Source of the DNA: Erwinia sp. 198
Lineage (GTDB): Bacteria; Pseudomonadota; Gammaproteobacteria; Enterobacterales; Enterobacteriaceae
Assembly (NCBI RefSeq): GCF_003937915.1
Contig: NZ_RHUM01000009.1
Span: 62,001 to 126,000, forward strand
DNA length: 64,000 bases
Direction of reading: 5' to 3'
The position numbers and the translations under genes are program-made. The notes under the pieces were generated by a model that saw only the letters and a list, made by a program, of their open reading frames with translations, searched no databases and had not been told where the DNA came from. How positions within the stretch are numbered: the stretch's first letter is position 1; each line of letters starts with the position of its first letter. This document shows, in pieces, positions 7,243 to 24,290 of this stretch.

Positions 7243-7259
7243 CACACCGGAGAGCCACT

Positions 7260-8919: not shown

Positions 8920-10508
8920 GCGCTTTTGTTTCCTCTATCCCAGGGCAGTTGGACTAAAAATTGCGTATAAACGCCGGGTTCGGACTCTACAATAATTTTT
9001 CCGCCAAGGCTTTCGGTTTGTTGTTTGGCGAGGAATAAGCCCACGCCCCGATCGCTTCCCTTGCTGGAAAAGCCTTTCTCAAAGATAGCATCGGGCTCCG
9101 GGATACCCGGCCCGTCATCGCTGACCTCGCAGGCCAGCCAGCCGTTCTGATAGTGCAGCAGCACGCTGATTTCGCCGCCGGGCTGGCCGTCTGCGGCCTC
9201 CAGCGCGTTCTCAATCAGGTTGCCCAGCACGGTGATCAGCGCGGCGGACTGCGTTTCACTGCCGCAGTCCGGCAGCAGGCTGTCCTCGCTGACGATCAGC
9301 CGGTGGCCGCGATCGGTCGCGCGTTCGATCTTGCTTAACAGAAAGCCCGCAATCACCGGCGATTTAATTTTCATCAGCAGCGAGCCAATCTCTGTCTGAT
9401 AGCCGTTGGCGGTTTTCAGGATATAGCTTTCCAGCTGCTGGTAGTTTTTCATATGCAGCAGGCCGAGGATTACATGCAACTTGTTCATAAATTCATGCGA
9501 GCGCTCGCGCAGCGCGTCAACATAGTTGACCAGACCGTCCAGCCGCTGCACCAGCTGACTGACCTCGGTTTTATCCCTGAAGGTACAGACCGCGCCGATA
9601 ATCACGCCCTTGCTGCGCACCGGCATCGTATTGCTGAGCAATACGCGCCCCTTGAAATGCAGCTCTCTGTCGCGCTGCGGTACGCCGCTTTGCACCACTT
9701 CGCGCAGGTTGGCGATAAGCGGGCCTGGCGCTTCGTCCTGCGGATGACGCGCTTCGGTAAAAAGCTGCTGCGCGGCCCGGTTGATCAGCGTGACCTGTAC
9801 GCGATCGTCCACCGCGATAACGCCTTCCTTAATCGATTGCAGCATCGCCTGGCGCTGCTCATACAGCATCGAGATCTCGTAAGGCTCCAGGCCGGAGAGC
9901 ACGCGGCGGGAGGCCCGTACCAGGCACCAGGTGCCGATAGCGCCCGCCAGCACGCCGAACATCGCTGTCCACAACACCGACCAGCGGGTACGCGCGATCT
10001 GCTGCGCGACCTCGCTCAACGAGATGCCTACCGCCACCACGCCAATCTGCCTCTGCCGGGCGTCGTAAATCGGTGTAAATACGCGTAGCGCCTGCGCCAG
10101 CTGGCCGCGATTAATCGCAACGTTTTCCTGCCCCGCCAGCGCCGGCTGCAAATCCTCGCCGATGAAAGGGCGGTTGATGGCGTTTTTATCAGGGTGAGAA
10201 TAGCGGATACCGCGCATATCGGTGACCACGACAAACAGCAGATGGTTGCTTTCCTGTACCGCCAGGGTAAGCGGCTGAATAATGTTGCGATCGGCGGGCA
10301 GCAGCAGGCCGCGCTGTACTTCGGCAGAATCGGCCAGGGTTCGCGCTACCGCCAGCGCTTTGTCCTTAACGCCGGTGCGGGTGATATGGCTTATCTGGAA
10401 AAAATAGAACAGATGTACGATCAGCAAAACGACGGCGAGCACCGCGCCTACCATCAGGCTGACGGCGGTGCTGAGCTTTAGCGGACGTTTACGGGACGGG
10501 TTACTCAT
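8916..10508 (-). CDS. dcuS: Fumarate/C4-dicarboxylate sensor histidine kinase DcuS
   Basis: Membrane sensor kinase of the CitA/DcuS family, 530 residues. Order: first membrane helix about residues 14-36; periplasmic PAS (PASp) sensor about 40-180 with 'VVVTDMRGIRYSHPDKNAI' and 'INRGQLAQALRVFTPIYD'; second helix about 182-200; cytoplasmic PAS about 210-320 ('QSIKEGVIAVDDR'); phosphorylation region 'LRERSHEFMNKLHVILGLLHMK' with the acceptor His near residue 340; and the ATPase with 'NLIENALEAAD', 'DDGPGIPE' and 'RGVGLFLAKQQ'. The match to E. coli DcuS is close throughout, including the periplasmic ligand region, so C4-dicarboxylate sensing is a safe inference. It is the first gene of the dcuSR unit. 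Confidence 0.95.
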   Translation of the reverse strand: MSNPSRKRPLKLSTAVSLMVGAVLAVVLLIVHLFYFFQISHITRTGVKDKALAVARTLADSAEVQRGLLLPADRNIIQPLTLAVQESNHLLFVVVTDMRGIRYSHPDKNAINRPFIGEDLQPALAGQENVAINRGQLAQALRVFTPIYDARQRQIGVVAVGISLSEVAQQIARTRWSVLWTAMFGVLAGAIGTWCLVRASRRVLSGLEPYEISMLYEQRQAMLQSIKEGVIAVDDRVQVTLINRAAQQLFTEARHPQDEAPGPLIANLREVVQSGVPQRDRELHFKGRVLLSNTMPVRSKGVIIGAVCTFRDKTEVSQLVQRLDGLVNYVDALRERSHEFMNKLHVILGLLHMKNYQQLESYILKTANGYQTEIGSLLMKIKSPVIAGFLLSKIERATDRGHRLIVSEDSLLPDCGSETQSAALITVLGNLIENALEAADGQPGGEISVLLHYQNGWLACEVSDDGPGIPEPDAIFEKGFSSKGSDRGVGLFLAKQQTESLGGKIIVESEPGVYTQFLVQLPWDRGNKSA

Positions 10509-10607
10509 GATCGCTCCATAACTGGCGGGACGAAACGGGCTGGCAAAGGGTGACCATAGCGGACGACGCCGGCAGGAAAAAGCGGACGGCTTGTTGCCGG
10601 AATACCA

Positions 10608-11573
10608 TCAGGCGACAGAGCCTGAGGCCATCTGGCGCGGCACCCGCCGTGCTTCTGCCGCTATCTCTTCACGCAGCAGGGCAATCAGTTCGCGCAGGCC
10701 CTGGGGCATGTGCCGATGGCCAGGATAATAGAGGTATAGCGCAGGTTCGACGGGTGACCAGTCGGGCAATACCACACGCAGAGCGCCGTTCAGCAACGGC
10801 TCTTTTACGCGGTCTTCCAGACAGTAAGCGATACCCGTTCCGGCAAGCGCCAGCTCCAGCGCCAGCGTGGTTTCGCTGACGCAAATTTGGCCGGGCACGT
10901 CGATAACGCGGTAGTCTTTGCCCTGACGAAACGCCCATTTATAGATTACGCCCTGGCCAGTGCGCATACGGATACAGGAATGCGCGCGAAGATCTTCAGG
11001 CTCCAGCAGCGGCGGGCGATGATAAAGATAGCGCGGCGCGGCGACGGCGACCCATTTCAGATCCGCGCCCAGCTTTACGGCGACTAAGTCTTCCGGCACG
11101 CTGCCGCCAAAACGGATACCTGCGTCGAAGCCTTCCGCCACGATATCCACCATGCGATCGTCCACGCAGACCTCCACCTCAACTTCCGGATACTTGCTGA
11201 GGAACTTTGGCAGATAGCGGCCCACAATCAGTCGCGCGCCGTCGCTCAGCACATTCAGGCGCAGACGGCCTGCCGGACGCTCGCGCAGGCGGTTAATTTC
11301 CTCCAGCGCGTCGCCAATCTCCTGAAAGCCGACGTTCAGCCGCAGCGCCAGGCTGGCGCCCGCTTCAGTAGGGGCAACGGCGCGGCTGGTGCGGTTCAGC
11401 AGCCGTACGCCCAGTCGCGTTTCCAGATTGCGAATAGCGTGGCTGAGCGCGGAAGTAGTAATGCCCAACTCCACCGCAGCTTTGGTAAAGCTGCGCAGGC
11501 GTTCCACCATGCGAAAAGCGTTCAGGTCGGCGAGATCGCTACGTGACAGCGCGGCTGTGGATTTGACGGGCAT
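10608..11573 (-). CDS. LysR-family transcriptional regulator, target unknown
   Basis: A 321-residue LysR regulator. The N-terminal winged helix-turn-helix is clear ('LNAFRMVERLRSFTKAAVELGITTSALSHAIRNLETRLGVRLLNRTSRAVAPTEAG'), followed by an effector-binding domain with 'LRLNVLSDGARLIVGRYLPKFLSKYPEVEVEV' and 'AEGFDAGIRFG'. That pattern belongs to the DsdC/AaeR-like subgroup annotated simply as LysR. The ATG at 11573 gives the usual family N-terminus; an in-frame start at 11636 would add 21 residues of low complexity. It is separated from dcuS by 99 bp and from the channel gene by 224 bp. There is no divergent gene, so its target cannot be inferred from context. Confidence 0.85.
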   Translation of the reverse strand: MPVKSTAALSRSDLADLNAFRMVERLRSFTKAAVELGITTSALSHAIRNLETRLGVRLLNRTSRAVAPTEAGASLALRLNVGFQEIGDALEEINRLRERPAGRLRLNVLSDGARLIVGRYLPKFLSKYPEVEVEVCVDDRMVDIVAEGFDAGIRFGGSVPEDLVAVKLGADLKWVAVAAPRYLYHRPPLLEPEDLRAHSCIRMRTGQGVIYKWAFRQGKDYRVIDVPGQICVSETTLALELALAGTGIAYCLEDRVKEPLLNGALRVVLPDWSPVEPALYLYYPGHRHMPQGLRELIALLREEIAAEARRVPRQMASGSVA

Positions 11574-11670
11574 GGGATCGTCCAGGGGATGAGCCAGATT
11601 CAATGCTGAAACGCTGGCGGTGCTAAAGGAGACCAAGTTTAATGATATTTGCTAATCAGACGCAACCGGC

Positions 11671-11700
11671 AACGCCGCTTCTTTAACTGAAAGCGGCGTT
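11671..11700. repeat. Perfect 10-bp inverted repeat upstream of the LysR gene
   Basis: AACGCCGCTT at 11671-11680 and AAGCGGCGTT at 11691-11700 are exact reverse complements with a 10-bp spacer. There is no T run on either side, so an intrinsic terminator is unlikely. The spot lies about 100 bp upstream of the lysR start, where an autoregulatory or other protein-binding site could be. Confidence 0.5.
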
Positions 11701-11768
11701 ACTTATCGCCAGGCTGGTGTCAGGATGCCGCGTGGCCAGCGGGCACGTTTTTTGCCGCGCCCGCTGGC

Positions 11769-11795
11769 AAAAATAGCCGGAAGCACCGGCTATTT
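11769..11795 (-). terminator. Rho-independent terminator of the MscS-type channel gene
   Basis: AAATAGCCGG at 11771-11780 pairs with CCGGCTATTT at 11786-11795 around a 5-base loop. Read on the minus strand, the stem begins 2 bp after the channel gene's stop codon and runs into five T residues, the classic intrinsic-terminator form. Confidence 0.8.
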
Positions 11796-11797
11796 CC

Positions 11798-12892
11798 TCA
11801 GGCTGGCTGCTCCTGCTGCGGCAGCGAATTTTCAAAGGTCACAAAACGGTGCGGTCCGGCCAGGCCAATACCCGTCTCTTCCAGATACTCTTTGATCCGC
11901 AGGTTGATCTCCTGCTGAATATCCATGTACTGGTTATAGTCGGAAAACTTCAGGATATGCACCACCTCAAACATAATGCGATCGGACTCGAAAGAGGCCA
12001 GATGCGCGCGGTCAAAGCGGGTTTTATCAATGCGGCCGATCGTTTCTTCAATCATTGGGCCAATCTTGCGCAGCTGCTCGGCCGATGTCGCCAGCGGCAC
12101 GCCAAAGCTGAAGACGATACGGCGCGTCTGCATCCTTTTATAATTGTGGATGGTTTGTTGCAGCAGGATAGCGTTGGCACAGACAATTTGCTCACCGCTC
12201 AGGCTGCGGATGCGCGTGGTTTTCAGCCCGATATGTTCGATAGTGCCCGCCACGTCGTTAAACACCACAAAGTCGCCGATTTCAAAGGGCTTATCAATAC
12301 CGATTGAAAGAGAGGCGAAAAGGTCGCTCAGCACCGTCTGTACTGCCAGCGCGATGGCGATACCGCCGACGCCCAGGCTTGCCACCAGCGCGGTAATATT
12401 GACGCCTGCGTTGGCCAGTATCGACAGGATCATCACTGACCAGACCAGCGCCCGGAATAACAGCCCAAGAATGATGGTAGTGACGGGATTACGGTGCGAG
12501 TCCGGGCCGTAGTTCGTCAGCGAATAGCGCAGCCAGGACTGCACGGCCTGATCCAGCCACAGCGCGATTTGCAGCGCCAGTACCAGAAACCAGGCGTGCG
12601 GGATGGTGCCGCTGACCTGGCCGGGCAGCACGATAAACTGCAGGCTGAACAGAAAAGAAGCGATAAATATCAGCGTAACCCGGGTTCTTTTCAGCACGTC
12701 CAGAAAGACGCGGTGCGCCACGCGATTTTCATGATCTTCCGCCCACGAGCCTATCCGTTTTTCCAGCAGCGAGATAACTTTGCGGATCAGGAAGAAAGTC
12801 ACAGCGGTGATCACCACTACCAGCAGAATGTTACCCCAGAAGGTCACTGACGTAATCAACTTCAAATAGTTTGTATGAAAGATTTCTTTCAC
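11798..12892 (-). CDS. MscS-family mechanosensitive ion channel
   Basis: Inner-membrane small-conductance mechanosensitive channel homologue, 364 residues. There are four to five hydrophobic segments in the first 190 residues. The pore-lining helix follows as 'ITALVASLGVGGIAIALAVQTVLSDLFASLSIGIDKPFEIGDFV', the hallmark Gly/Ala-rich TM3 plus the start of the beta domain ('GTIEHIGLKTTRIRSLSGEQIVCANAILL'). The C-terminal cytoplasmic alpha/beta domain ends in 'QEINLRIKEYLEETGIGLAGPHR'. It is longer than MscS itself (286 residues in E. coli), with one or two extra N-terminal helices as in YnaI-type channels, but I cannot assign it to a named E. coli paralogue. It appears monocistronic, with its own terminator. 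Confidence 0.88.
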   Translation of the reverse strand: MKEIFHTNYLKLITSVTFWGNILLVVVITAVTFFLIRKVISLLEKRIGSWAEDHENRVAHRVFLDVLKRTRVTLIFIASFLFSLQFIVLPGQVSGTIPHAWFLVLALQIALWLDQAVQSWLRYSLTNYGPDSHRNPVTTIILGLLFRALVWSVMILSILANAGVNITALVASLGVGGIAIALAVQTVLSDLFASLSIGIDKPFEIGDFVVFNDVAGTIEHIGLKTTRIRSLSGEQIVCANAILLQQTIHNYKRMQTRRIVFSFGVPLATSAEQLRKIGPMIEETIGRIDKTRFDRAHLASFESDRIMFEVVHILKFSDYNQYMDIQQEINLRIKEYLEETGIGLAGPHRFVTFENSLPQQEQPA

Positions 12893-13357
12893 ACGGCCTC
12901 CTTTATTCTGAATTGGTAAGAGGGTAAGTGTAGTAGAAAATTCATAGGGATAACTCTTTTTTGGTTTCTTATTAAATTTTATTGTTAAAATGAATCCGCA
13001 CGAAAATCATTACGCGGATATTTTAATCTGAGTTTCTGTTTTAAAATGATGTGGTTCTTTTCTTTTTTATTTCGGGTTAAGATGGTTGGGTAATATTATG
13101 GTTTTTCATTTTAATATTAATAAGTAATCTTGCGTGGCAGGCTGATTATTTATTTTCGGGCTGGTGGCTATCTTCTTAACAGGAAGGTTTAGCCGTTTCT
13201 TCTGATGGAGCTGGTCGGGTTTCAACGCAAAGAACAGGTAATAAACGAGGGAAAATGGCTTCCGATATTTGCATATAGATAGCAGAAATAGTTCGTAGAG
13301 ATAGTACGGCTGGAGTGGCAATGTGGAACCAGGCCTCCTTCAGCCAGGATAAAAGTC
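12893..13357. other. AT-rich intergenic region, nothing recognised
   Basis: This 465-bp region lies between the divergent channel and oxygenase genes and must hold both promoters. It is strongly AT-rich between 12940 and 13110. A 71-codon minus-strand frame at 13106-13321 has no recognisable features and no good ribosome-binding site, and is not called as a gene. Confidence 0.5.
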
Positions 13358-14380
13358 ATGAGCCAACAAAGTCCTTTAACGCTTCCGGTTATTGATTTCG
13401 CTCAATTAACCGGCTCGGCGCAGCAGCGTGCAGCCTTGCTTGAGTCGCTTGCCCGGGCGGCACGTGAGGCCGGTTTTTTCTATCTGAGCAATCATGGGAT
13501 CGATCAGGCGTTAATCGACAGGGTGCAGCGGGTCGCTCGCGCGTTCTTTGCTTTACCGCCGGAAGAAAAACTCAGGGTCAAAATGGCGAATTCGCCGCAT
13601 TTTCGCGGCTATAACCTTGCTGGCGTAGAGATAACCCGTAATCAGCCCGACTATCGCGAACAGTTCGATATCGGCGCGGAACGAGAAGCGCTACCCGTTT
13701 CGCCAGACATTCCGGCATGGCAAAGAATGCAGGGGCCTAACCAGTGGCCGCAAGCGCTACCGGAACTGCAACTTGTGCTAACGCGCTGGCAGCAGGAAAT
13801 GACTGGGGTCGCGCTGAAACTGCTGCGCGCTTTCGCCGAGGCGCTGCAACTGCCGCGGGACGCTTTCGACGGCCTTTACGGCGCTTTCCCCAATGAGCAT
13901 ATCAAACTGATCCGTTATCCGGGGCGCACCGACAGCGAATCGCGTCAGGGCGTTGGCGCGCATAAGGATTCCGGTTTTTTGACGCTGCTGCTACAGGATG
14001 ATAAGCCAGGTCTGGAGGTTGAGATTCGGCCAGGCGAATGGACAGCGGCGACGCCTTTACCCGGTTCATTTGTTGTCAATATTGGAGAACTGCTTGAGCT
14101 GGCGACCAACGGCTATCTGCGTGCCACCGTGCACCGCGTGATATCGCCGCAGACAACACAGGAGCGTTTATCTGTTGCCTTTTTCCTTGGCGCACAGCTT
14201 GACGCCGTGGTGCCGGTATATCAGCTGCCGGAAGCGCTGGCGAACCTGGCGCAGGGGCCGGACAGCGATCCGCAAAATCCGCTGCTGCGGGAAGTTGGCT
14301 GGAATTATTTAAAAGGGCGGCTGCGCTCGCATCCCGACGTAGCGCAGCGCTTCTATGCAGACTTCACTGAGCACTGTTGA
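13358..14380 (+). CDS. 2-oxoglutarate/Fe(II)-dependent oxygenase, isopenicillin-N-synthase-like family
   Basis: Soluble non-haem iron oxygenase of 340 residues. The N-terminal DIOX_N region is 'LPVIDFAQLTG' through 'AREAGFFYLSNHGID' and 'FFALPPEEKLRV'. The catalytic core has 'GVGAHKDSGFLTLLLQD', supplying the His-x-Asp pair near residues 200-202, and the distal His in 'RATVHRVISP' near residue 264, followed by 'RLSVAFFLGAQ', whose Arg normally binds the 2-oxoglutarate carboxylate. The small-molecule substrate is not predictable; homologues in Enterobacterales are generally annotated only as 2OG oxygenases. AGGA precedes the start by about 10 bases. It is the last gene with normal base composition before the AT-richer helicase locus. 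Confidence 0.85.
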   Translation: MSQQSPLTLPVIDFAQLTGSAQQRAALLESLARAAREAGFFYLSNHGIDQALIDRVQRVARAFFALPPEEKLRVKMANSPHFRGYNLAGVEITRNQPDYREQFDIGAEREALPVSPDIPAWQRMQGPNQWPQALPELQLVLTRWQQEMTGVALKLLRAFAEALQLPRDAFDGLYGAFPNEHIKLIRYPGRTDSESRQGVGAHKDSGFLTLLLQDDKPGLEVEIRPGEWTAATPLPGSFVVNIGELLELATNGYLRATVHRVISPQTTQERLSVAFFLGAQLDAVVPVYQLPEALANLAQGPDSDPQNPLLREVGWNYLKGRLRSHPDVAQRFYADFTEHC

Positions 14381-14733
14381 GAAAAGCATGACTCCTGTCT
14401 GGCCTAACTATATTTGATAAAATTAAAGCGCCTCATCAACCTGGCGAGGTCGCTGAAATTCCGAAATATAGGGTGAAAGCTATTCAAAACTGACGCAACT
14501 CCTTGCGAAGCTGCAAGACAACTTAATAAACGATTGCGCGCAAATTTAAGTTAACCGGGGTCTACAAATATTCCTGTTTTTCCTGGCTAAAGATTCATTT
14601 CAGCGCAGAAAAACAAATGTGCAGAAACCGGGAGTAGCTTGCTGGTCTGGTCGCGATAACTGAATGAGTATTGACAGTTGATTTTTATTTGCCTATCTTT
14701 CTTCGTTTGCTTATCGCTACAGTGTTTTACGAA
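14381..14733. other. AT-rich gap leading into the helicase operon
   Basis: This is the left flank of a locus with lower GC than its neighbours. No gene is supported: the 60-codon minus-strand frame at 14587-14769 overlaps the promoter and the helicase start. No tRNA end, integrase remnant or obvious direct repeat is visible that would mark an attachment site. Confidence 0.5.
14671..14699 (+). promoter_or_regulatory. Sigma-70 promoter of the helicase/coiled-coil operon
   Basis: TTGACA at 14671-14676 is a perfect -35 element. It is followed after exactly 17 bp by TATCTT at 14694-14699 (four of six matches to the -10 consensus). Transcription would begin near 14706, 28 bp before the ATG at 14734. 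The first TTG codon of the longest open frame is part of this -35 box, so it is not a start codon. Confidence 0.65.
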
Positions 14734-17700
14734 ATGTGCCTTTCGTCTACTGGTCCAGAAAATATACATATCCCTGTCTGTGCAGGCTATTTTAATGGGG
14801 ATATTCTTTTTGACGTAACAGGATTACCTCGTGAGCCGGGAGCCGTGCCGGATCACGTCGCCAACTGCTTTGCTATTTTAACGCGCGGCATGCCTTCTCG
14901 CCCGACGCCTCAGCTTCTTGCGCATTTCGGCTGCCGCTGGCAGGATTTGCAGCACGCTCCTTTGTGGTTGATAGCCAATTCATCACCTTATTGGGGCGAA
15001 TCGATTCGGGGAAACGATCAAGGCAATAATCCTGCGCTAACGTTTTTCGATGAAATTATGCCTGAATATCTCGGGCGCTGGACATTTATACAAAACCTTA
15101 TTGTTCCCGAGTATCCTCTGTTCCGTGAACTGGGGGCGCCACGTAATTTAGTCAGGGAAGATAATTCAGAAAGAGTGGATTTTTACCTTCCTCAGGCTGA
15201 GTTGGTGATTGAAATTGACGGGGGACAGCATAAAAGTGCCAGACAAACGGCGAAAGACAATGAAAGAGAGCGTTTTCTCGAACGCTATGGCATAGAAACG
15301 CTTCGCCTGAAAACAGAAGATCTCCGCAGTAAAAATGCGCATTTCACTGATTTTATCGATCGCCTTAAGCTGCGCTGCGAAAACAGTTCCCTTCTTAGCG
15401 CTTACCATCATTTTCTGGCGACAGCACAAGATTCAACTCCTTCGCTGCGCTACGATTTGACGGCCACACTCCGGTTACAGGTTGCGCTTATCCTTGCTGT
15501 AGCCTGTGGCTGTCTGGATTTATCTGCCCCAGAATGGCGACTGCACGTTACTCAGGATTTCCCTGAAAATCAGGGCAATACATGGGTAAATTTCGCCGTC
15601 GATGAGTTATTCAGCTGGTTTGAGTTATTTGCACGACTAAACCACACGACGTTCACCCGACCTGATATTATTTTTAGCTCTGATGGTCTTCATTTTGCTA
15701 TGCGCCTCTTCCAGCGGGCTGACGATAACGCTGCCAGTGATCAAGGGATTGGTATCTATACGGGAGCCGTGCAATATCTGCCGTTTTGCTATGGAGAAGA
15801 GAAATTAAAAAAGAAAATCAGAATACGGAGTGGCAGCAAATCCTACCTCATTACAGAAAAAGCGGCTAAACAGCAGCAGAACGCCGTTTTGCCCGCATTG
15901 GCAGACCTGAGTGAGCTTAATTACCGTATCTTTGGGCATGATAGTTTTCGACCAGGACAGGAAACCCTGATTTTAAATGCGTTATCCGGCCAGAAATCTT
16001 TAGGGCTTATGCCGACAGGCGGAGGAAAATCGCTCTGCTTCCAAATTCCAGCCCTGCTTAGTCAGGGAACGACAATCGTAGTTGTGCCGATAAAAGCACT
16101 GGGGCGCGATCACTGCGCGGAACTGGAAGCTGTAGGCTTTACAGGAAGAACGGTAAATATTGACAGCAATATGCCCGCCGTCCTGAGGGATAAAATTTAC
16201 TTTCGCAGAATATTAAGCGGCGAAATGCGTTTTGTCTTTGTTTCACCTGAGCGATTCCAGACTGAAAGCTTCCGTCGTATTATTGATAGCCTGCGTCAGG
16301 CTGAACAGCTACGTATGTTCGTCATTGATGAAGTACATTGCATGAGTGAATGGGGGCATGATTTCCGTCCTTCTTACCTGACGTTGCCCGGTACTTTACG
16401 TAAGCTTGCGAAAGACGTGCCGTTAATTGGATTAACAGCTACCGCCAGCGTCAACGTGCTTAGAGATATTCAAAGTGAATTTCAAATTCCTGATGAACTG
16501 GTAGCTTATGAGATGCACAGAGGCCGCACTGAACTGAATTTTTCTATCCGTAAAAATAAAAGTTCAGCTGAAGTTGTGGTGCAGGAAGTAATGAATATTC
16601 TGGCTAAGCAGACGGAGACGGGAAGCCCGCCGATACATATATTCTCGCCTTATGCCAATGGCGTAAATGGCGTAGAGTTTTTATCAAATGCGCTTGCTGA
16701 TGCCAAAGGTGATTTGAAAATCGGTTTTTTTTCGGGGGCTGCGCCACGTAATTTCAATCCGGATAAAGCATGGCAACGGCTACAGGATAGTCACCTGATG
16801 GCCTCGCCAGATTATGAGCGTTATAAAAAAACGGTGCAGGCTTTCTGGAAGCAGGGCAAGCTTGACGTTATTGTCACCACTAAGGCCTTTGGCATGGGGG
16901 TGAATAAACCTGATGTTCGGCATACATTACATGCCGGTATGCCGGGTTCAATGGAGGCATTTTACCAGGAAGCAGGGCGTGCCGGGCGCGATCGGCGTCC
17001 CGCCGTTTGCCATATGCTTTTTCAGCCTGAATCCGATGATGCCGAGCATATCTGGCTACGATTGCAGGCTAATTTGACGCCGGAAGCGGTTCAGAAAGAG
17101 ATTGATGCACGCAGCCAGAATAGCAGAGGCGATTTTCGTTCCCAGCTATGGTTTCTGCGTCAGGGACTCATCTCGCTGGAAGAGGAGCAGGCTTTGCTGG
17201 CGCGGCTGCATACTCTTGTCCGTGAATGGTCGCAGGAAATACAGGTTATCCATGTCAGGCAGCTCAGCGAGGTGCCACAGAATGGATTACGTTTCCAGCT
17301 AACGCTTTTTCGATTGTATCAAATGGGTATTATCGAACCCTGGACCGTAACGGATTGGGGGCGAGGCGGAGCGGAAGAGCTTTCCGTGCAGGCGGTCGAA
17401 GTCCGGCGGTTAAATACGAGTTTTGTCGGCGCCTGTAGCGCCGTGATGTTGCGGATCCAGTCAGTAGACGGCAAAGGCGCTGAATCGGCGACGTTGGAAA
17501 AACTAAAGGCGCTCGCGAAGCAGAAGGAGAACTGGCCAGGACTTTATCAACTCTTATTGGCATGGGTCAGAAGAACTCAACTTGGTAGCCGACTGCAATC
17601 GACCTGGAACCTGTACAACGCTTGCCTGAACTTCACGCCCGAGCAGGTCGTTGTGTTTCGCGACACGCTGGAGTCTTTCTTTAAAGTGGACAGCAACGCT

Positions 17701-18168
17701 TTCCGCCTGGCCTCTCTGCGAGATATGCCTCTTAATGAGGCGGCCGTTGCGCTTAACAGCCTTATAACCGTAAACGGTACTCATGAACTTCCTGATCGAA
17801 TGCTTCTGAATAAACTGGCCGCTCAGCTGGCTCGTTTACTGGAGGGAACTCAGGAAAGCAGAGGGCTGAACCTGGCCGCAGCCTGTCTGCAGCTTTTAAC
17901 GGAACAAACGTCGACTAACGAAGCGAGCAGGCGCTTTCGCCAGGCCGTGCCTGATGACGTACTGTCTTTCTGGCATGGCGCTGGTGGTCTTTTATTATCA
18001 CGCGTTGGCAGGGCTAATGCTTCTGCAGGCGAAACCATTGGCGGCTGGTTGCTTAACGAAAAACCGGCTCGCCACGAGCTGTTGGCTATTCATAATGCCC
18101 TACCGGCAAAAGTCATTGAGGCTGCGCTTTTTCATGAGGTCGCCGCTGAGCTGGCCCAAATTTTGTGA
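14734..18168 (+). CDS. RecQ-type DNA helicase fused to an N-terminal DUF559/Vsr-like nuclease domain
   Basis: Predicted cytoplasmic nuclease-helicase of 1144 residues, function not established. An N-terminal part of about 130 residues is unrecognised. Residues about 145-205 show a PD-(D/E)xK/DUF559 pattern: 'ERVDFYLP', 'LVIEIDGGQH', then 'DNERERFLERYGIETLRL'. Residues about 400-790 are a superfamily 2 RecQ core: 'FRPGQETLIL', Walker A 'PTGGGKSLCF' near 430, motif II 'VIDEVHCMSEWGHDFRPSY' near 532 (DEVH rather than the usual DEAH), 'GLTATAS', and motifs V-VI 'TTKAFGMGVNKPDVRH' and 'YQEAGRAGRD' near 748. The last 350 residues are helical and unassigned, without a RecQ-type zinc cluster or HRDC domain that I can see. 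The ATG at 14734 is chosen because the upstream TTG lies in the promoter. A coiled-coil gene follows by 6 bp. Composition is more AT-rich than flanking genes, which suggests transfer. Confidence 0.85.
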   Translation: MCLSSTGPENIHIPVCAGYFNGDILFDVTGLPREPGAVPDHVANCFAILTRGMPSRPTPQLLAHFGCRWQDLQHAPLWLIANSSPYWGESIRGNDQGNNPALTFFDEIMPEYLGRWTFIQNLIVPEYPLFRELGAPRNLVREDNSERVDFYLPQAELVIEIDGGQHKSARQTAKDNERERFLERYGIETLRLKTEDLRSKNAHFTDFIDRLKLRCENSSLLSAYHHFLATAQDSTPSLRYDLTATLRLQVALILAVACGCLDLSAPEWRLHVTQDFPENQGNTWVNFAVDELFSWFELFARLNHTTFTRPDIIFSSDGLHFAMRLFQRADDNAASDQGIGIYTGAVQYLPFCYGEEKLKKKIRIRSGSKSYLITEKAAKQQQNAVLPALADLSELNYRIFGHDSFRPGQETLILNALSGQKSLGLMPTGGGKSLCFQIPALLSQGTTIVVVPIKALGRDHCAELEAVGFTGRTVNIDSNMPAVLRDKIYFRRILSGEMRFVFVSPERFQTESFRRIIDSLRQAEQLRMFVIDEVHCMSEWGHDFRPSYLTLPGTLRKLAKDVPLIGLTATASVNVLRDIQSEFQIPDELVAYEMHRGRTELNFSIRKNKSSAEVVVQEVMNILAKQTETGSPPIHIFSPYANGVNGVEFLSNALADAKGDLKIGFFSGAAPRNFNPDKAWQRLQDSHLMASPDYERYKKTVQAFWKQGKLDVIVTTKAFGMGVNKPDVRHTLHAGMPGSMEAFYQEAGRAGRDRRPAVCHMLFQPESDDAEHIWLRLQANLTPEAVQKEIDARSQNSRGDFRSQLWFLRQGLISLEEEQALLARLHTLVREWSQEIQVIHVRQLSEVPQNGLRFQLTLFRLYQMGIIEPWTVTDWGRGGAEELSVQAVEVRRLNTSFVGACSAVMLRIQSVDGKGAESATLEKLKALAKQKENWPGLYQLLLAWVRRTQLGSRLQSTWNLYNACLNFTPEQVVVFRDTLESFFKVDSNAFRLASLRDMPLNEAAVALNSLITVNGTHELPDRMLLNKLAAQLARLLEGTQESRGLNLAAACLQLLTEQTSTNEASRRFRQAVPDDVLSFWHGAGGLLLSRVGRANASAGETIGGWLLNEKPARHELLAIHNALPAKVIEAALFHEVAAELAQIL

Positions 18169-18174
18169 GGAAAC

Positions 18175-18723
18175 ATGTCTTTTGAGGAAGGTTTTGACGC
18201 TATCGCCAAAGTAAAAGCTTCAGGCGAAAAGCTGGGCGAAACGGTTAACAGGATAGCAGAGCTGGAAGGCTGGCTGAGCCAACTTTATCAGGCACATAAT
18301 CAGGCTGAAGATGTTTTTAAAAAAGCGACATTGGCAATTGATTCGTTACAACATACAGTCGCGGAGATAACCGAGCGGCAAATAGAGTTACAGGAAGAAG
18401 TCCAGACGCTGCCTGAAGCCGTACGACAGGTACTTTTATCAGCTGACCAGCGGTTGGCAGCGCAACAGGAAGAAAATGCGCGGATGATGGCGCAGTTTCC
18501 GGCCATGATTAACGATGCGATTGACACAAAGCTGACGGCGATCGTCAGCCAGATGGAAGTTCGGCTTAGTGAGCGCTTACGCGACGAGCTAAAAGATACC
18601 CGTATCACACTGCGTGATACGCTGGAATATGGTAATAACCGCACGGAGATGCGCCTGGATGAAATAAAAAAGGAAATCATTGCCGAACTGCCGCGTGGGC
18701 TGTTTGGCCGTCGCAAGGGATAA
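18175..18723 (+). CDS. Coiled-coil protein, partner of the nuclease-helicase
   Basis: No family recognised. The 182-residue protein is almost wholly helical and charged, with heptad-like stretches at about residues 15-35, 40-80 ('FKKATLAIDSLQHTVAEITERQIELQEEVQTL') and 125-170, and a basic tail 'GLFGRRKG'. There are no cysteines, membrane segments or catalytic motifs. Its ATG lies 6 bp after the helicase stop, with GAGGAAAC serving as ribosome-binding site inside the junction, so translation is probably coupled and the two products likely act together. A role as oligomerising, sensor or adaptor subunit is inference from context. A weak 7-bp inverted repeat at 18739-18763 follows the gene. Confidence 0.75.
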   Translation: MSFEEGFDAIAKVKASGEKLGETVNRIAELEGWLSQLYQAHNQAEDVFKKATLAIDSLQHTVAEITERQIELQEEVQTLPEAVRQVLLSADQRLAAQQEENARMMAQFPAMINDAIDTKLTAIVSQMEVRLSERLRDELKDTRITLRDTLEYGNNRTEMRLDEIKKEIIAELPRGLFGRRKG

Positions 18724-18808
18724 GTGAAGCTGGAGGCATGCCGGCCCATTTTCAGAGCCGGCAAACCCTCTTACGACCATAGCCACTTAACACTTAGTCA
18801 GACGCTGG

Positions 18809-19168
18809 CTATAGCTTTTCCCACGCTGGCAGGTGATTAGCTCGTTTTCGCCATTCCTGGAACGCCGCCATAATCACCCCGAAAAACAGACCGGCTATCA
18901 GCGTCGAAGTGGCGGCATAAAGCAGCGTGGCTCCCTGAGATTTCCAGAAAATAAACCACATTACTATCCCCCAGAACGGCGTATAGACGACGGCAAAGCT
19001 GAAAAAGTTCGTCCAGAATGTTGAGAAGGGCGGTGGAGGCACATGGATCCCCAACCGCCACAGAAATATATGGCACGGAGGAGCATAGATGCTGGGCCAC
19101 ATCCCCCTGCCTTCCATAATCGCCATCGCGCGTTTTTTTCTTTTTTCGAAAACTGAGTCCCCGGTCAT
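18809..19168 (-). CDS. Small two-helix membrane protein, DUF6404-like
   Basis: A 119-residue protein with a cytoplasmic N-terminus containing 'KRAMAIMEGRGMWPSIYAPPCHIFLWRLGIHVPPPPFSTFW'. Two hydrophobic segments follow, about residues 50-72 and 78-100, then a short basic tail. The 'PP..FLWRLGI-VPPP-F.SFW' pattern is what I recall for the DUF6404 family of enterobacterial membrane proteins; the function is unknown. The ATG at 19168 has AGAGGGGG seven bases upstream, a better spacing than the ATG at 19174. It converges with the coiled-coil gene (85-bp gap). Confidence 0.6.
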   Translation of the reverse strand: MTGDSVFEKRKKRAMAIMEGRGMWPSIYAPPCHIFLWRLGIHVPPPPFSTFWTNFFSFAVVYTPFWGIVMWFIFWKSQGATLLYAATSTLIAGLFFGVIMAAFQEWRKRANHLPAWEKL

Positions 19169-20216
19169 TTGCATACCCCCTCTTGTTTTTCTTTTGTCTA
19201 ATTATAACGGAAGGGTCAAAAAATATACTTTTATCGATATTTTTTAGAAAATTCTGGAGACGCGATCGGGGGGCGGAAAAATTAGTTATAATCCAGCAGG
19301 TTAATCTGTCTCCCCCTGGTGGGAGTCTGCGCTTTATGCGTCGATAAAAATAAATTATTAGCCAGTAAGTTGACGTGGAACCGATTGGTAATTGGATGAT
19401 CTTTATCAGGGCCCTAAGTAGTTGCCTGGCGCTTACCTCCAGTCCGCGTTGTCGATGCATTACGCTGGCGCAGACGACAGCGGGAAGGCAAGGCGCAAGT
19501 CGTGCCGATTCGCTTAAAAAGGGTAGAGCCCGGTGCCCGGGGGCGTCTTTCTCCTTATTTAATCCGGCCTGACTGCTGATCAACTGTAAGTAGGCTTGTT
19601 GCTCGTCAGGGCTGATAAGCAGGGATAGTGAGGAAAATCCGCTCTGGCTTACCGGCAAACGTGCTGAGAGGGCATTTTCGGGAAATTCCTTTTAAAGGTT
19701 GAAATTGTTAATATAATTATTGAAGGTTATGCAGCGGTACTGCTCAGTGAAATAATGGCCTGGCGGAGGATCTGTCGTACAGGTAAGCCAGCTACCTTTT
19801 TATGATTTTTTATAGATTTCCTATAAGATTTTCAGGCAGGGCGCTAATAACCATTCTGCTGCCGGCAGCATAAAGACATCAACTACTTTTGATGTTCCCG
19901 GTAGCGGGATTAGACTATCAGGCTCAATTTCAGGATTTTTTAAAAAGTTAATGATGGTGGCGAGGTCAGGACTTACTTCGACAATCAGTATAAATCAGGC
20001 AAGTGGTTTTTAAAGTAAATAAATTTTCAGATAAACGTCGAGCCCGGCAGGTTCCCTGAGTTATCTCCTTTCTTTAAGTCATTAATTGAATATAATTCCC
20101 GCAGACTCCTCTGATAATCGCCCATCAACTTAAATCACAACGCAATAAATGGTACCCTTGCCGCTGACGGCGAACGATCGCCGTTTTATTAATCAGTAGA
20201 TTTAAGGAATTGATGT
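19169..20216. other. About 1 kb gap, AT-rich, with clustered small hairpins; no gene supported
   Basis: No reading frame here shows family features. A 273-codon minus-strand frame spanning 18837-19658 runs antisense-frame through the DUF6404 gene and looks accidental. Around 19857-19912 several short inverted repeats cluster: a perfect 14-bp palindrome TGCTGCCGGCAGCA at 19857-19870, ACATCAA/TTGATGT about 20 bp further on, and TCCCG/CGGGA. This could be a structured RNA or the debris of an older insertion. The 3' part must carry the promoter of the H-NS-like gene. Confidence 0.4.
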
Positions 20217-20618
20217 ATGAGTTTTACCCTGAGCAGCCTGAAAAATATCCGTTCGCTACGTGCACAGGCGCGCAATATGGCTACAGAGGATCTTGAAGAG
20301 ATACTATCGAAGCTGAAAGTTATTGTGAATGAACGTCGTGAAGCCGTCAGCGCGCAGGCAGCAGAAGCCCGCGAGAAGGCGGAAAAGCTGGCAATGTATC
20401 GTGAGCTGATGCTTGAAGACGGCATTTCACCGACAGAACTGGTCAATCATTTGCCGCCCGTCGGCCGTATAAAAAAGAAACGCGCGCCTCGTCCCGCAAA
20501 ATATAAGTACCTCGACGGCAATAATGAAGTCAGACACTGGACCGGCCAGGGCCGCACGCCGACGCCTATTAAGCATGCCATTGCAAACGGTCAGTCGCTG
20601 CATGATTTCCTGATCTAA
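20217..20618 (+). CDS. H-NS/StpA-family nucleoid-associated protein
   Basis: Xenogeneic-silencer family DNA-binding protein of 133 residues. The N-terminal dimerisation region 'LSSLKNIRSLRAQARNMATEDLEEILSKLKVIVNERRE' is followed by a charged coiled coil and a second oligomerisation stretch. A basic linker 'GRIKKKRAPRPAKYKY' leads to the DNA-binding domain 'WTGQGRTPTPIKHAIANGQSLHDFLI', with the QGR motif that inserts in the AT-rich minor groove. It diverges from standard H-NS in the core ('LDGNNEVRHWTGQ' instead of the usual 'VDENGETKTWTGQ'), and the gene is not beside galU/tdk as E. coli hns is. I therefore take it for a paralogue, perhaps tied to the AT-rich locus upstream. AAGGA precedes the ATG by 7 bases. 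Confidence 0.88.
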   Translation: MSFTLSSLKNIRSLRAQARNMATEDLEEILSKLKVIVNERREAVSAQAAEAREKAEKLAMYRELMLEDGISPTELVNHLPPVGRIKKKRAPRPAKYKYLDGNNEVRHWTGQGRTPTPIKHAIANGQSLHDFLI

Positions 20619-20635
20619 TCGATCGGGCATCAGGT

Positions 20636-20667
20636 AATAAGGCAGAACGTTAAGGCTGCCTTATTTT
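20636..20667 (+). terminator. Rho-independent terminator after the H-NS-like gene
   Basis: AATAAGGCAG at 20636-20645 pairs with CTGCCTTATT at 20656-20665, followed by TT and preceded by an A-rich arm. It lies 18 bp after the stop codon. The T-rich distal arm and A-rich proximal arm would make it active in both directions. Confidence 0.75.
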
Positions 20668-20829
20668 GCCGTACGGCTCTTTGAGAGCAATATAGCAACC
20701 ACGCCGTGCAGAGTGTTCTTCTGGCGCTGAAGCGTAACTTCCGTTGGTGATAAAGCCGGCTCCGCAAAGCGATCGTTGCGCTAAACCACCCAAGCCAGCC
20801 AGCTCTGGTTGCAGGCTGCGCTCAGCTTT

Positions 20830-21504
20830 TCAGGTAGAGAGCAGCGCGCGTTTAAAAGAGTCAATATGCGCGCGGGTGGCTGCCGTCACGCGCTGAATAT
20901 CCCCGGAGGCCAGCGCCGCAATAATTTCATTATGCTCAGCGATAACCTCATCCATATGGCTGACGCTCGACAGCGTTGTCGCCCAGAAGCGCTGCGCCTG
21001 CGCGTGAATAACGCTCAGAATATCCGCAAGCCGACGGTTGCCCGCGATGTCCGCCAGCACCTGATGAAACTCGCGATCCAGCAGCATCATCTGCTCTCTG
21101 TTACGTGACCCGCCTGCAAACGCAATCTGCTGATTCAGCTCGCGCAGCTGGTTAAGGTGCGCCTTATTTACTTTCTGGCTGGCAAGCTGCGCACACAGCG
21201 TTTCGTTAACCAGCCGCACCTCAATCAATTCCAGCGCATCATCGATCGATAACGGGGCGACCATAACGCCCTTGCGGGGAATTATTTGGAGCAGCCCTTC
21301 GGTAGCCAGGCGGTGGATCGCCTGATTGATCGGCGTGCGTCCCATTTCCAGATCGTCCATCACCTGTGCGGTATTGAGATAATCGCCGGGCTTGTAACGC
21401 AGCGTGATCAGCCTGTGCCTGAACGCCAGATAGGCCTGTTCGTTCAGCGACAGATATTTTTTCCGCTCGATCGGGTTCACATTTTCACCAGCTGACTCAT
21501 TCAT
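20830..21504 (-). CDS. GntR-family regulator with FCD effector domain
   Basis: Probable local repressor of the divergent amidase operon. The 224 residues comprise an N-terminal winged helix ('LNEQAYLAFRHRLITLRYKPGDYLNTAQVMDDLEMGRTPINQAIHRLATEGLLQIIPRKGVMV') and a helical FCD domain with the metal/ligand residues typical of the family ('DREFHQVLADIAGN' near residue 140 and 'EHNEIIAALASGD' near 197). Starting at 21504 gives the usual N-terminus; a longer frame back to 21672 would cover the operator and is rejected. The intergenic region of 112 bp holds one perfect palindrome. The effector is presumably the operon's substrate or product. Confidence 0.87.
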   Translation of the reverse strand: MNESAGENVNPIERKKYLSLNEQAYLAFRHRLITLRYKPGDYLNTAQVMDDLEMGRTPINQAIHRLATEGLLQIIPRKGVMVAPLSIDDALELIEVRLVNETLCAQLASQKVNKAHLNQLRELNQQIAFAGGSRNREQMMLLDREFHQVLADIAGNRRLADILSVIHAQAQRFWATTLSSVSHMDEVIAEHNEIIAALASGDIQRVTAATRAHIDSFKRALLST

Positions 21505-21577
21505 GATGCCGTTCCTGTTTAAGCCTTTGCGACATATTACACAAAAAGCTGGCATGAAAATCGCTAGTTTGAAATGC

Positions 21578-21593
21578 GAGTGAAATTTCACTC
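21578..21593. promoter_or_regulatory. Perfect 16-bp palindrome, probable GntR operator
   Basis: GAGTGAAATTTCACTC is a perfect palindrome with no spacer. It lies 23 bp upstream of the first structural gene and 73 bp from the divergent regulator start. Its position would let a bound repressor block the plus-strand operon. No other symmetric element of this quality is present between the two genes. Confidence 0.6.
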
Positions 21594-21616
21594 TAATTTT
21601 AAATAAGGGGTTTGCC

Positions 21617-22297
21617 ATGCACCTACAGTTTATTACCGGCGACGATGCCGCTGCCAGACTCGATGTCGACATAACCCGGTTTGTTATTGCAGGCTGGGCA
21701 GGGCGCGATCGGGACGCTGTCCTGCACCATATTCGTGAGCTGGAGGCGTTAGGCGTGCCTGCTCCTGGTGCAGTGCCGCTCTTTTACCGCGTCGCCACTA
21801 ATCAGCTCAGCCAGAACGCCTCGCTGGAAGTCGTGGGCAACGAAACATCCGGCGAAGCCGAACCTTTCGTCTTTTTTCATCGCGGAGAGTGCTGGGTTTC
21901 TCTTACCTCCGATCACACCGATCGCTATCTGGAAACCTTCAGCGTTGCGCTTTCCAAGCAGGCCTGTATCAAACCGGTGGCAAGCGGCGCGTGGCGCATG
22001 AGCGAAGTGGCTGAACACTGGGATGCGCTGGAGCTGACTTCCTGGATAAAAGAGCAGGGCGAGTGGGTGGTTTATCAACAAGGTTCGCTGTCGTCGCTGC
22101 TAACCCCACAGGAGCTGCTGGCGCGCTATCTGGAGGACAAAACGGCTGCTGACGGCCTGGCCATGTCCTGCGGCACGCTGAGCACTATTGGCGGCATCCG
22201 TCCGGCCAGCGAGTTTCGGATGGCGCTGCACGATCCGGTGCTGGGCCGCACGCTGGAGCACGCTTACCGCACCGGCGCGCTGCCGGTCGTCGCATAA
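21617..22297 (+). CDS. DUF2848-family protein, first gene of an amide catabolic operon
   Basis: A 226-residue soluble protein that I recognise as the DUF2848 type ('VPAPGAVPLFYRVATNQLSQ', 'GNETSGEAEPFVFF', 'VSLTSDHTDRYLE', 'SCGTLSTIGGIRPASEFRMALHDPVLGRTLEHAYRTGALPVV'). The family is distantly related to fumarylacetoacetate-hydrolase-like folds and is found beside amidases and GntR regulators. Its reaction is not established; hydrolysis or decarboxylation of the acid released by the amidase would fit. It starts 23 bp after a palindromic operator and is followed 11 bp later by the amidase gene. Confidence 0.65.
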   Translation: MHLQFITGDDAAARLDVDITRFVIAGWAGRDRDAVLHHIRELEALGVPAPGAVPLFYRVATNQLSQNASLEVVGNETSGEAEPFVFFHRGECWVSLTSDHTDRYLETFSVALSKQACIKPVASGAWRMSEVAEHWDALELTSWIKEQGEWVVYQQGSLSSLLTPQELLARYLEDKTAADGLAMSCGTLSTIGGIRPASEFRMALHDPVLGRTLEHAYRTGALPVVA

Positions 22298-22308
22298 GGA
22301 GCACGGCT

Positions 22309-23652
22309 ATGACGACACTCTGGCAAGCGAGTCAGCAGCTACGGGCGGGTAACGTTCAGCCTGAAACATTCACGCACGCGGCATTGGCTGCCTTGCGCGA
22401 TCCTGAAAAAGAAGGCGTACGCGTTTTCATTACTCGTTATGAGGCGTCTGCTACGCAGCAGGCTAATGAGGCGGGAGCGCGCTGGCAAGCACGGCAATCA
22501 AGGAGCCCGATCGATGGACTGCCCATCAGCATCAAGGATCTGTTTGATGTCAAAGGCGAGGCGACGACAGCGGGCTCGCGGCTGTTAAGCGATGCGCCGG
22601 TGGCTACGGCGAACGCGAGCGTGGTAGATAAGCTCAGTCGGGCCGGCGCCGCGATAGTCGGTAAGACCAATATGACCGAGTTCGCATTCTCCGGGCTGGG
22701 CATCAATCCGCACTACGACACGCCTGCCAACCCGTGGCGGCGCGAGGAGAAACGTATTCCCGGCGGCTCCTCTTCCGGCGCGGCGGTGGCCGTGGCGGAT
22801 GGGCTGTGCCTGGGCGCCATAGGTACCGATACCGGCGGTTCCGTACGTATTCCCGCCGCGCTCTGCGGCCTGACCGGCTTTAAACCTACCGCCAGCCGAA
22901 TCGATCAGGCGGGCACGTTGCCGCTTGCGCCTTCGCTGGACAGCATTGGCGTTATTGCGCATGACGTTCGCAGCTGCTGGCTGCTTGACAGCATCATTGC
23001 CGAAAAGCCTCTTGAGATGCGGGAGTCGGATCTGCGTCACGCCCGCTTTGCCATACCGCAAACTCGCGTGCTGGACGATCTGGATCGGGACGTAGCGCAG
23101 GCGTGGCAGTACGCGCTTGATCTTCTCCGGGAAGCCGGGGCCAGGCTGGTGGCCTTGCCGCTTACCGAGCTGGAGGAGCTGAACAGCCTGAACGCGCGCG
23201 GCGGCATTACGGCTTATGAAGCCTGGCAATGGCATCAGCGGACGGCTCTGGCCCGGCCCGAAGCTTACGATCCGCAGGTGCTGATGCGCCTGCAGCGCGG
23301 CAGCCAGCTGACTGAACAGGATGCCGCTGAACTTTATCAGCAGCGCGCAGCCTGGCAGCGCCGTATCAACACGGCGCTGGAAGGTTTCGACGGGTTGCTG
23401 ATGCCCACCGTGCCGCAGGTTGCGCCGACTATCGCTTCGCTGGACGAGCCGCAGCGTTATATGGAGATCAATGCCCTGATGCTGCGTAACACCAGCGTGA
23501 TCAACATGCTGGATGGCTGCGCCATCTCCTTACCCTGTCACCAGACCGGTCATGCGCCGGTTGGCCTGAGTCTTGCTGCCGTTCATGGCGACGATGCCCG
23601 CTTAATCAGCTGGGCTGTTGCCGTGGAAACTGCCCTTAACCGGAGATCCTGA
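22309..23652 (+). CDS. Amidase signature-family hydrolase
   Basis: Cytoplasmic Ser-cisSer-Lys amidohydrolase of 447 residues. The catalytic lysine is in 'LPISIKDLFDVKG' (Lys76), the bridging serine in 'PGGSSSGAAVAVA' (about Ser154) and the nucleophile in 'GTDTGGSVRIPAALCGLTGFKPT' (Ser178). The 24-residue Ser-Ser distance agrees with family enzymes. The C-terminal part, 'GLLMPTVPQVAPTI' and 'NTSVINMLDGCAISLPC', is typical of stand-alone amidases, not GatA; no gatB or gatC is nearby. It is the second gene of a four-gene operon under a GntR regulator, so it probably opens an amide or carbamate brought in by the MHS transporter. The substrate is unknown. Confidence 0.88.
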   Translation: MTTLWQASQQLRAGNVQPETFTHAALAALRDPEKEGVRVFITRYEASATQQANEAGARWQARQSRSPIDGLPISIKDLFDVKGEATTAGSRLLSDAPVATANASVVDKLSRAGAAIVGKTNMTEFAFSGLGINPHYDTPANPWRREEKRIPGGSSSGAAVAVADGLCLGAIGTDTGGSVRIPAALCGLTGFKPTASRIDQAGTLPLAPSLDSIGVIAHDVRSCWLLDSIIAEKPLEMRESDLRHARFAIPQTRVLDDLDRDVAQAWQYALDLLREAGARLVALPLTELEELNSLNARGGITAYEAWQWHQRTALARPEAYDPQVLMRLQRGSQLTEQDAAELYQQRAAWQRRINTALEGFDGLLMPTVPQVAPTIASLDEPQRYMEINALMLRNTSVINMLDGCAISLPCHQTGHAPVGLSLAAVHGDDARLISWAVAVETALNRRS

Positions 23653-23654
23653 AG

Positions 23655-24290
23655 ATGAACCAACCTCACGGCATGCTGTTTGTCGCCACCAATATTGGCG
23701 CGGATGACGAAGCGGATTTTAACCAGTGGTATGACCATGAACACGTTGAGGAGCGCGTGGCCATCAGCGGCTTTTTAAGCGGCACGCGCTACCAGGCGAT
23801 TAACGCCGAACGTAAATATCTGGGTCTGTATGAAACCGAATCCCTGGAGGCTTTTACCAGCGCTGACTATCACGCGGCGTTTACGCGCCAGACCGAATGG
23901 TCGGTGAAAAATCTGCAAAAAATGGTCAACCCGATGCGCCGGGTCAGCACCGTTACCCATACCCACGGTAAAGGCACCGGCAGCCAGCTGGCGGTGGTCA
24001 CGCTTGCGCAAGCGGTCGACAGCGCGGCGCTGAGCGCCTGGCAGCAGCAAATCGGCCAGACGCCGGGCTATATCACCTCCTGCCTGCTGACGCCCGATGT
24101 GGATCTGAGTACGCCCCTGCCGATGGAAGGGAAAGAGAACCGCCAGATGCTGCCGATGCTGCTTATCAGCTGTAGCGAGGCGTCATGCTGCGATCGGCTG
24201 GCTTCCGTCGCGGCGAAGCTGCTGACGGGCGAGGTGCAGCGCTATGCCCTTAGCTGGACATTAACCCGACAGGAGATGACTCATGGATGA
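23655..24290 (+). CDS. EthD/dimeric alpha-beta barrel-like protein of the amidase operon
   Basis: A 211-residue soluble protein. The start 'GMLFVATNIGADDEADFNQWYDHEHVEERVAISGFLSGTRYQ' followed by 'YLGLYETESLEAFTSADYHAAF' has the form of a ferredoxin-like dimeric alpha-beta barrel (EthD/DUF4286-type) with the conserved 'WYDHEH' segment. The second half, from about residue 110, looks like a degenerate repeat of the fold. Such proteins are often small decarboxylases, isomerases or ring-adduct processing enzymes, but no function is proven. It starts 2 bp after the amidase stop, and its end overlaps the transporter gene by 8 bp, so all are translationally linked. Confidence 0.6.
   Translation: MNQPHGMLFVATNIGADDEADFNQWYDHEHVEERVAISGFLSGTRYQAINAERKYLGLYETESLEAFTSADYHAAFTRQTEWSVKNLQKMVNPMRRVSTVTHTHGKGTGSQLAVVTLAQAVDSAALSAWQQQIGQTPGYITSCLLTPDVDLSTPLPMEGKENRQMLPMLLISCSEASCCDRLASVAAKLLTGEVQRYALSWTLTRQEMTHG

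Follow-up and report, generated by a model that had tools for sequence, protein, structure and literature searches.

What does a bacterium gain from carrying a long helicase gene with a small coiled-coil gene directly behind it? The question is raised by a locus at 14734–18723 of a 64,000-nucleotide stretch of Erwinia sp. 198 DNA (contig NZ_RHUM01000009.1, positions 62,001 to 126,000 of the forward strand), which as a whole is called the window below. An original prediction read this locus as a two-gene defence module. That reading has survived checks of location, co-conservation and naming, and we put its probability at roughly 0.6: the pair would act against incoming DNA, with a helicase-nuclease effector carried on a coiled-coil scaffold that in most relatives is predicted to be tethered to the membrane. 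Immunity through a nuclease and a helicase is of a known kind, and the pairing of a helicase-nuclease with a coiled-coil protein is probably so far uncharacterised.

The larger gene lies on the plus strand at 14734–18168 and encodes 1144 residues from its ATG. Its open reading frame spans 14671–18168 and would yield 1165 residues if the TTG at 14671 were used; that TTG opens the first hexamer of a promoter-like TTGACA-17-TATCTT, and the ATG at 14734 is taken as the start because it fits the starts of the homologues and gives the 1144-residue product. Judged by its profiles and motifs, the protein is a RecQ-family helicase fused to a PD-(D/E)xK (DUF559) nuclease, and the predicted length and motif positions held, with Pfam in agreement. 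The nuclease domain, delimited by Pfam and by alignment, occupies residues 141 to 215 or so (15154–15378); it scores 34.6 bits against DUF559 (1.9e-8), above the gathering cut-off of 20.6 bits, and was aligned to structure 3hrl. Its motif reads D149...E160-x-D162-G-x-Q-H166 in the numbering of the 1144-residue form. The RecQ-family superfamily 2 (SF2) helicase core follows at residues 386 to 775, approximately (15889–17058), and contains Walker A K432, D532-E533-V-H535, an aromatic-rich loop and GRAGRD at 748–753, with Pfam matches to DEAD (4.8e-23) and Helicase_C (4.1e-10).

Both active sites are intact and conserved in an alignment of the window protein with 26 near full-length members, which are 24–65% identical to it. 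Residues D149, E160, D162, H166, D175, R178 and R191 of the nuclease are invariant in all 27 sequences, as are K432, D532-E533-x-H535, W540 and F544 of the aromatic-rich loop, and R749 and R752 of motif VI. The helicase domains are recognised by profile in 27/27 and DUF559 (E<=0.01) in 26/27. The alignment leaves aside the partial or broken members L071, L075, L076, L079, L080 and L083, the plasmid and E. coli copies L011–L014 and L017, the distant L116, and two nuclease-less members (L078 and L081), and the 27/27 figure therefore holds for members that have a nuclease. The protein probably cuts DNA.

The remaining parts of the protein are less readily assigned. The region before the nuclease (residues 9–140 or thereabouts, 14758–15153) belongs to no Pfam family, and the C-terminal region (residues 776–1144, 17059–18165) is mostly helical in the structural model, with residues 877–884 poorly modelled. 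No Pfam match was found in the last 370 residues or so, in line with the original description of about 350 unassigned residues. A fold search with the model placed RecQ structures on top, although its rows mostly concern the helicase core and barely test residues beyond 1028. The cysteine set of the RecQ zinc site is missing from residues 752–904, where only C759 is widely conserved (25/27). On the alignment, the absent cysteines exclude a canonical RecQ architecture, but not a RecQ core.

The second gene (18175–18723, plus strand) begins 6 bp past the helicase-nuclease stop and encodes 182 residues, and both its coordinates and its model agree with the coiled-coil gene that had been predicted. 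It is modelled as two long helices, residues 3–76 and 82–178, and has no transmembrane helix. No convincing match to it was obtained in Pfam, NCBIfam or PADLOC. Its closest counterpart, from Cedecea, is 49% identical, all other partners are 10–19% identical, and by BLASTP no homology to the plasmid partner is detected.

Coupling of the two genes was examined in genome contigs, where a scan of the best 80 of 424 relatives gave at least 34 family loci, L051–L083 (33, whole or partial) and L116. L071, L075, L079 and L083 end too near a contig end to be assessed and were left out of the partner count. A coiled-coil gene lies past the helicase in all 30 assessable loci, so that the predicted co-conservation is found by position, and 28 of these partners have their start in the interval from 26 bp ahead of the helicase stop to 12 bp past it. 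In L116 the first base of the partner gene coincides with the final base of the stop; the helicase frame of L076 is interrupted, and its partner follows the second piece. A feature that the original prediction did not mention is a predicted transmembrane helix at the C-terminal end of 29 of the 30 partners, which in this resemble tail-anchored membrane proteins; the exception is Cedecea L051, and the partners of L017 and of the viral L019 are likewise without such a helix. In the same scan, a comparable neighbour (a frame of 100–300 residues that begins no more than 40 bp from the stop, is poor in proline and glycine and has a hydrophobic tail) accompanies 0 of 45 ordinary RecQ genes. L116 was at first counted among these and was reassigned on the basis of the tree and its gene content, which changed the control from 1/46 to 0/45, and L094 was dropped as it has no readable RecQ frame. 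Pairwise distances of helicase and partner are correlated (r=0.87 over 27 pairs, r=0.65 over 16 non-redundant ones), with none of 2000 permutations reaching values as high, which fits the two proteins travelling together.

The spread of the family is, on the genomes compared, rare and patchy. A full-length match occurs in only one of 60 genomes, the window's own; 57 contain partial matches, mostly to the helicase core, and 2 contain none, so that a copy at one and the same place in every relative, which would have spoken against the original prediction, is not seen. At E<=1e-70 the profile matches 2/392 genomes of the window's taxonomic family, 1/369 of the class and 1/398 of the phylum, the own genome being counted each time. 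Members are present in Cedecea, SAR116 alphaproteobacteria, Advenella, many Bacteroidota, Balneolota and Bacillota, and on enterobacterial plasmids, some of which bear phage-type genes. The matches in E. coli genomes are 116-base stretches in 4 of 5426, and L013 and L014, which are among these, carry a DprA-type operon. One full member is found in viral contigs, on a 206-kb contig (L019) that was recovered by an alignment-based scan and missed by a single-protein scan. In a phage collection, none of 25 matching records reaches 80% coverage of the protein, and those listed (15) match through the helicase core. The L019 pair (5890–9806) encodes 1153 and 152 residues in genes that overlap by 4 bp, and the gene that precedes it has no Pfam match.

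In a phylogenetic tree, the family and L116 are split from housekeeping RecQ by a branch with 100/100 support, and support for the 27 as a clade, L116 excluded, is only 77/49. L116 itself has a D...E-x-D-like motif by eye, a sub-threshold nuclease match and a coiled-coil/transmembrane gene. All seven PsyrT sequences form a 100/100 clade of their own on the ordinary-RecQ side, which excludes the family. The betaproteobacterial member from Advenella nests among Bacteroidota and Balneolota, a placement that suggests horizontal transfer. Several long branches make details of this tree unsure, and it contains no DpdF sequence.

The surroundings of several relatives point in the direction of immunity. 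At least 8 of 22 neighbourhoods contain a strong PADLOC match within about 7 kb of the pair. These include KwaA and KwaB of Kiwa one gene from the pair (L062), SoFic and type I restriction subunits (L063), further type I restriction subunits (L068), TmtA (L067), a type II methyltransferase (L064), a reverse transcriptase (L074) and a ShosA-like DprA (L052). In L060 (8887–20197) the pair is followed by ZorB, identified by its PADLOC profile, and then by frames that by eye resemble ZorA, a third Zorya-type gene and an SNF2-type helicase, an arrangement that suggests two defence modules placed end to end. The next gene upstream of the L054 pair is an integrase. Pooled scans also matched AbiEi, PDC-M02, PDC-M12, PDC-S14, HEC-06 and AriB without assignment to a locus. 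The neighbours of ordinary RecQ matched mainly DNA methyltransferase, restriction and mad3 models among the 25 listed, and the family and the control differ in the kind and completeness of their neighbours, which raw counts do not separate cleanly.

In the mechanism we propose, the RecQ-type motor would unwind or track along foreign or abnormal DNA and feed it to its own PD-(D/E)xK nuclease, and the small coiled-coil protein would bind the helicase-nuclease as a scaffold. In most lineages, the C-terminal transmembrane helix would tether this complex to the inner membrane, the place where injected phage DNA or conjugating plasmid DNA would first appear. In the enterobacterial branch to which the window belongs, the complex is probably soluble or held in some other way, because this branch is without the anchor. 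Because a membrane helix is missing from the window version, and no recognised defence neighbour was seen there, tethering would describe the family better than the window member. We infer defence, the physical binding of the two proteins and action at the membrane from sequence comparison.

A bolder version, to which we would give slightly less than even odds, sees the family as a new class of membrane-tethered DNA-entry checkpoint, in which a tail-anchored coiled coil would keep a RecQ-nuclease at the inner membrane, poised for DNA that is injected or conjugated. The pair would then be a modular chassis that can occur without the nuclease (L078, L081), without the anchor (the window branch and the phage copy) or with an added ShosTA-like DprA/phosphoribosyltransferase module, apparently acquired at least twice. 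The jumbo phage and the plasmids with phage genes that carry a copy would perhaps use it against competitors.

Several observations weigh against the reading as a membrane-linked defence module. The low identity among partners means that their equivalence would rest mostly on position and coiled-coil form, and the correlated distances point to joint inheritance rather than binding. The partners of the window, Cedecea and the phage are without a membrane helix, so tethering is not general. Two Bacteroidales members, L078 (3866–6769) and L081 (8791–11694), have no nuclease; the helicase and the first part of the N-terminal region are still there, and the coiled-coil/transmembrane partner is longer, as checked in Pfam for L078. 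Next to the window copy, no defence gene was recognised among near neighbours that were read as open reading frames; of these, Pfam and NCBIfam scans took in the two next known genes, and the PADLOC scan was confined to the pair. Of 30 neighbours of relatives scanned individually, chosen by size and position, 20 gave no match at the limit used and 10 did. Nor does the raw tally of PADLOC models help: 107 and 66 models were matched by two sets of 107 and 77 family neighbours (184 of 317 called genes from 22 loci, the 317 including the targets and partners) against 66 by 113 control neighbours (of 295 genes, from 11 of 27 long-flank loci). Twelve control loci with 122 genes had been chosen, of which the last was left out. 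Such a count is no sound measure, because a single methyltransferase can match many models and only 25 are listed per set.

The setting of the pair within the window adds some context. Both genes had been placed behind one promoter, and a promoter-like site is present upstream of the pair (14671–14699, plus strand, 10/12 matches); it is weak, because the region contains 7 such sites where 6.7 are expected by chance. The same scan gave 14 terminators against 8.3 expected. The pair was also said to be richer in A+T than its flanks, and this stands for the more distant ones: G+C content is 46–53% per kb over 15001–19000, compared with 58–60% at 8001–12000 and 60–62% at 22001–25000. It does not stand for the adjoining stretches, which are low as well (51–52% at 12001–14000 and 46–51% at 19001–21000). 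The nearby H-NS/StpA paralogue was located at 20217–20618. Between it and the pair lies a 121-residue frame on the minus strand (18809–19174), which may be a gene of a repeated variable region because its DNA also has matches elsewhere, at several places in the own genome and in those of siblings. No clean empty site was obtained from sibling genomes: where both flanks match, the matches are far apart or on separate contigs and do not meet. Repeats near the pair are short, occur in two copies and are almost always imperfect; there is no tRNA gene in the 64-kb window and no Rfam match across 12800–21800.

The main rival to the defence module is a toxin-antitoxin or abortive system resembling RqlHI, PsyrTA or ShosTA, in which a toxic helicase-nuclease would be restrained by the coiled coil until infection frees the toxin and the cell dies. 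We regard this as unlikely, although it draws on a set of variant operons. In plasmid relatives, as in L011 (9776–15863), a ShosA-like dprA is followed by a gene for a 1558-residue HAD/ShosT-like/DUF559/RecQ protein and then by a coiled-coil/transmembrane gene, and the same layout, with HAD and ShosT-like portions N-terminal of the helicase-nuclease, is seen in L012, L013 (E. coli) and L059 (Advenella); the domain, ShosA and ShosT scans were made on the L011 proteins, and the others were assigned by length and position. The transferase part of the 1558-residue protein matches PADLOC ShosT (2.3e-7), with no Pfam phosphoribosyltransferase match listed. This operon looks like a merger of ShosTA with the helicase-nuclease family and may constitute a separate system. 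The genes of SAR116 L052 run helicase-nuclease, coiled-coil/transmembrane gene, transferase-like gene (Pfam 24.0 bits, just below the cut-off of 26.3) and DprA, a ShosTA-like set of four in which the last two, at 12894–14677, are separate genes. Because the layouts differ, being fused in the L011 type and separate in L052, they suggest that a ShosTA-like module joined the helicase-nuclease/coiled-coil chassis more than once. The plasmid-type operon is also found interrupted by IS5 (L014, 8664–14206) and by IS1 (L140, 4702–10639), which is possibly a sign of selection against the operon in some hosts.

Precedent for such restraint exists, as RqlH is described as genotoxic and RqlI as restraining it (PMC4670107), and DprA homologues are named as the antitoxins of shosTA, syrTA and rqlHI (PMC9122126). 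Against this, the partner seen throughout the family is a coiled coil that in most cases carries a membrane tail, and does not resemble DprA. The helicase core falls outside the PsyrT clade. Across the 22 loci, ShosA is among the PADLOC models listed for one neighbour protein only, that of L052, and the own genome has a single ShosA/DprA-type match, located on contig 14, whereas the pair is on contig 36.

Alternatively, the pair could be an accessory of DNA repair or recombination that moves horizontally and has no role in immunity. RecQ cores serve repair, one of the nuclease-less members (L081) is near a TamB-type gene, which belongs to a housekeeping family, and the surroundings of the window copy, as described above, are compatible with such a role. 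The patchy presence, the defence neighbours of several relatives, and the carriage on plasmids with phage genes and on a viral contig all speak for a defence module instead, and an ordinary RecQ is present elsewhere in the same genome. The repair accessory is, to our judgement, a little less probable than the toxin-antitoxin system. The weakest alternative, a stray DpdF of the 7-deazaguanine DNA modification (Dpd) system, is extremely improbable. The window protein does score 1642 bits with PDLC02868, the PADLOC model named DpdF, over model positions 2–1078 of 1078. The curated NCBIfam DpdF model, however, gives 193 bits against a cut-off of 550; DpdE, the one other dpd gene searched for in the own genome, has no match there above cut-off; and Dpd models are absent from the 25 listed of 107, and from the 25 listed of 66, for the neighbour sets.

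If the defence module is borne out, the locus would represent an uncharacterised two-gene defence family that extends across Pseudomonadota, Bacteroidota, Balneolota, Bacillota and one phage contig, and whose large protein has been hidden in PADLOC-DB under a misleading DpdF label. It would also link RecQ, DprA and phosphoribosyltransferase immune modules through one chassis. With this family one could test directly if a RecQ-type helicase of bacteria acts at the membrane on incoming DNA, and its natural variants, with no nuclease, no anchor or an added DprA module, are a ready mechanistic series.

How, then, does the pair compare with systems that already have a name? No description of a DUF559-RecQ pair with a coiled-coil partner was found in the open-access literature, a scope that leaves out bioRxiv preprints and most subscription papers, and the expectation that no named system would match exactly was borne out, as the nearest name, DpdF, misses its curated cut-off. 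The likeness to DpdF is that of a RecQ-like helicase and a PADLOC label. Judged by the scores above, PDLC02868 describes a different family than DpdF, and its label is not membership; genome surveys that use this model may report stray dpd genes. A search for DpdF in 321 genomes of the class gave no match, but as 0 of 14 controls matched it shows nothing about absence.

Like RqlHI and PsyrTA, the window pair places a RecQ-family core in a two-gene operon, and PADLOC PsyrT scores 213 bits on the window protein. Those systems have a phosphoribosyltransferase and DprA where the window pair has a DUF559 nuclease and a coiled-coil partner; Pfam at E<=0.1 gives no phosphoribosyltransferase match in the window protein, and membership in PsyrT/RqlH is ruled out by the tree and the architecture. 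ShosTA is not known to contain a helicase or a nuclease. The DprA-PRTase system of P2-like phages is described as composed of DprA and a phosphoribosyltransferase, with no helicase or nuclease (PMC9122126). A ShosA-like DprA and a transferase-like part accompany the plasmid/Advenella lineage and L052, and not the window gene. From housekeeping RecQ, the family differs by having no set of zinc-site cysteines and by its N-terminal nuclease, long C-terminal region and coiled-coil gene.

Two further comparisons concern mechanism only. Zorya and Kiwa team a membrane component with DNA-processing proteins, which is the likeness to the model proposed here, and their genes lie near L060 and L062. The window pair contains no convincing component of either: its partner matches ZorA2 at E 0.0027, a value of the kind that coiled coils give, and ZorB is absent among the PADLOC matches listed for either window protein. 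Hachiman and AbpAB bring helicase and nuclease activity together in defence through other protein families, whereas in the window pair both predicted activities are joined in one chain and are accompanied by a coiled-coil partner.

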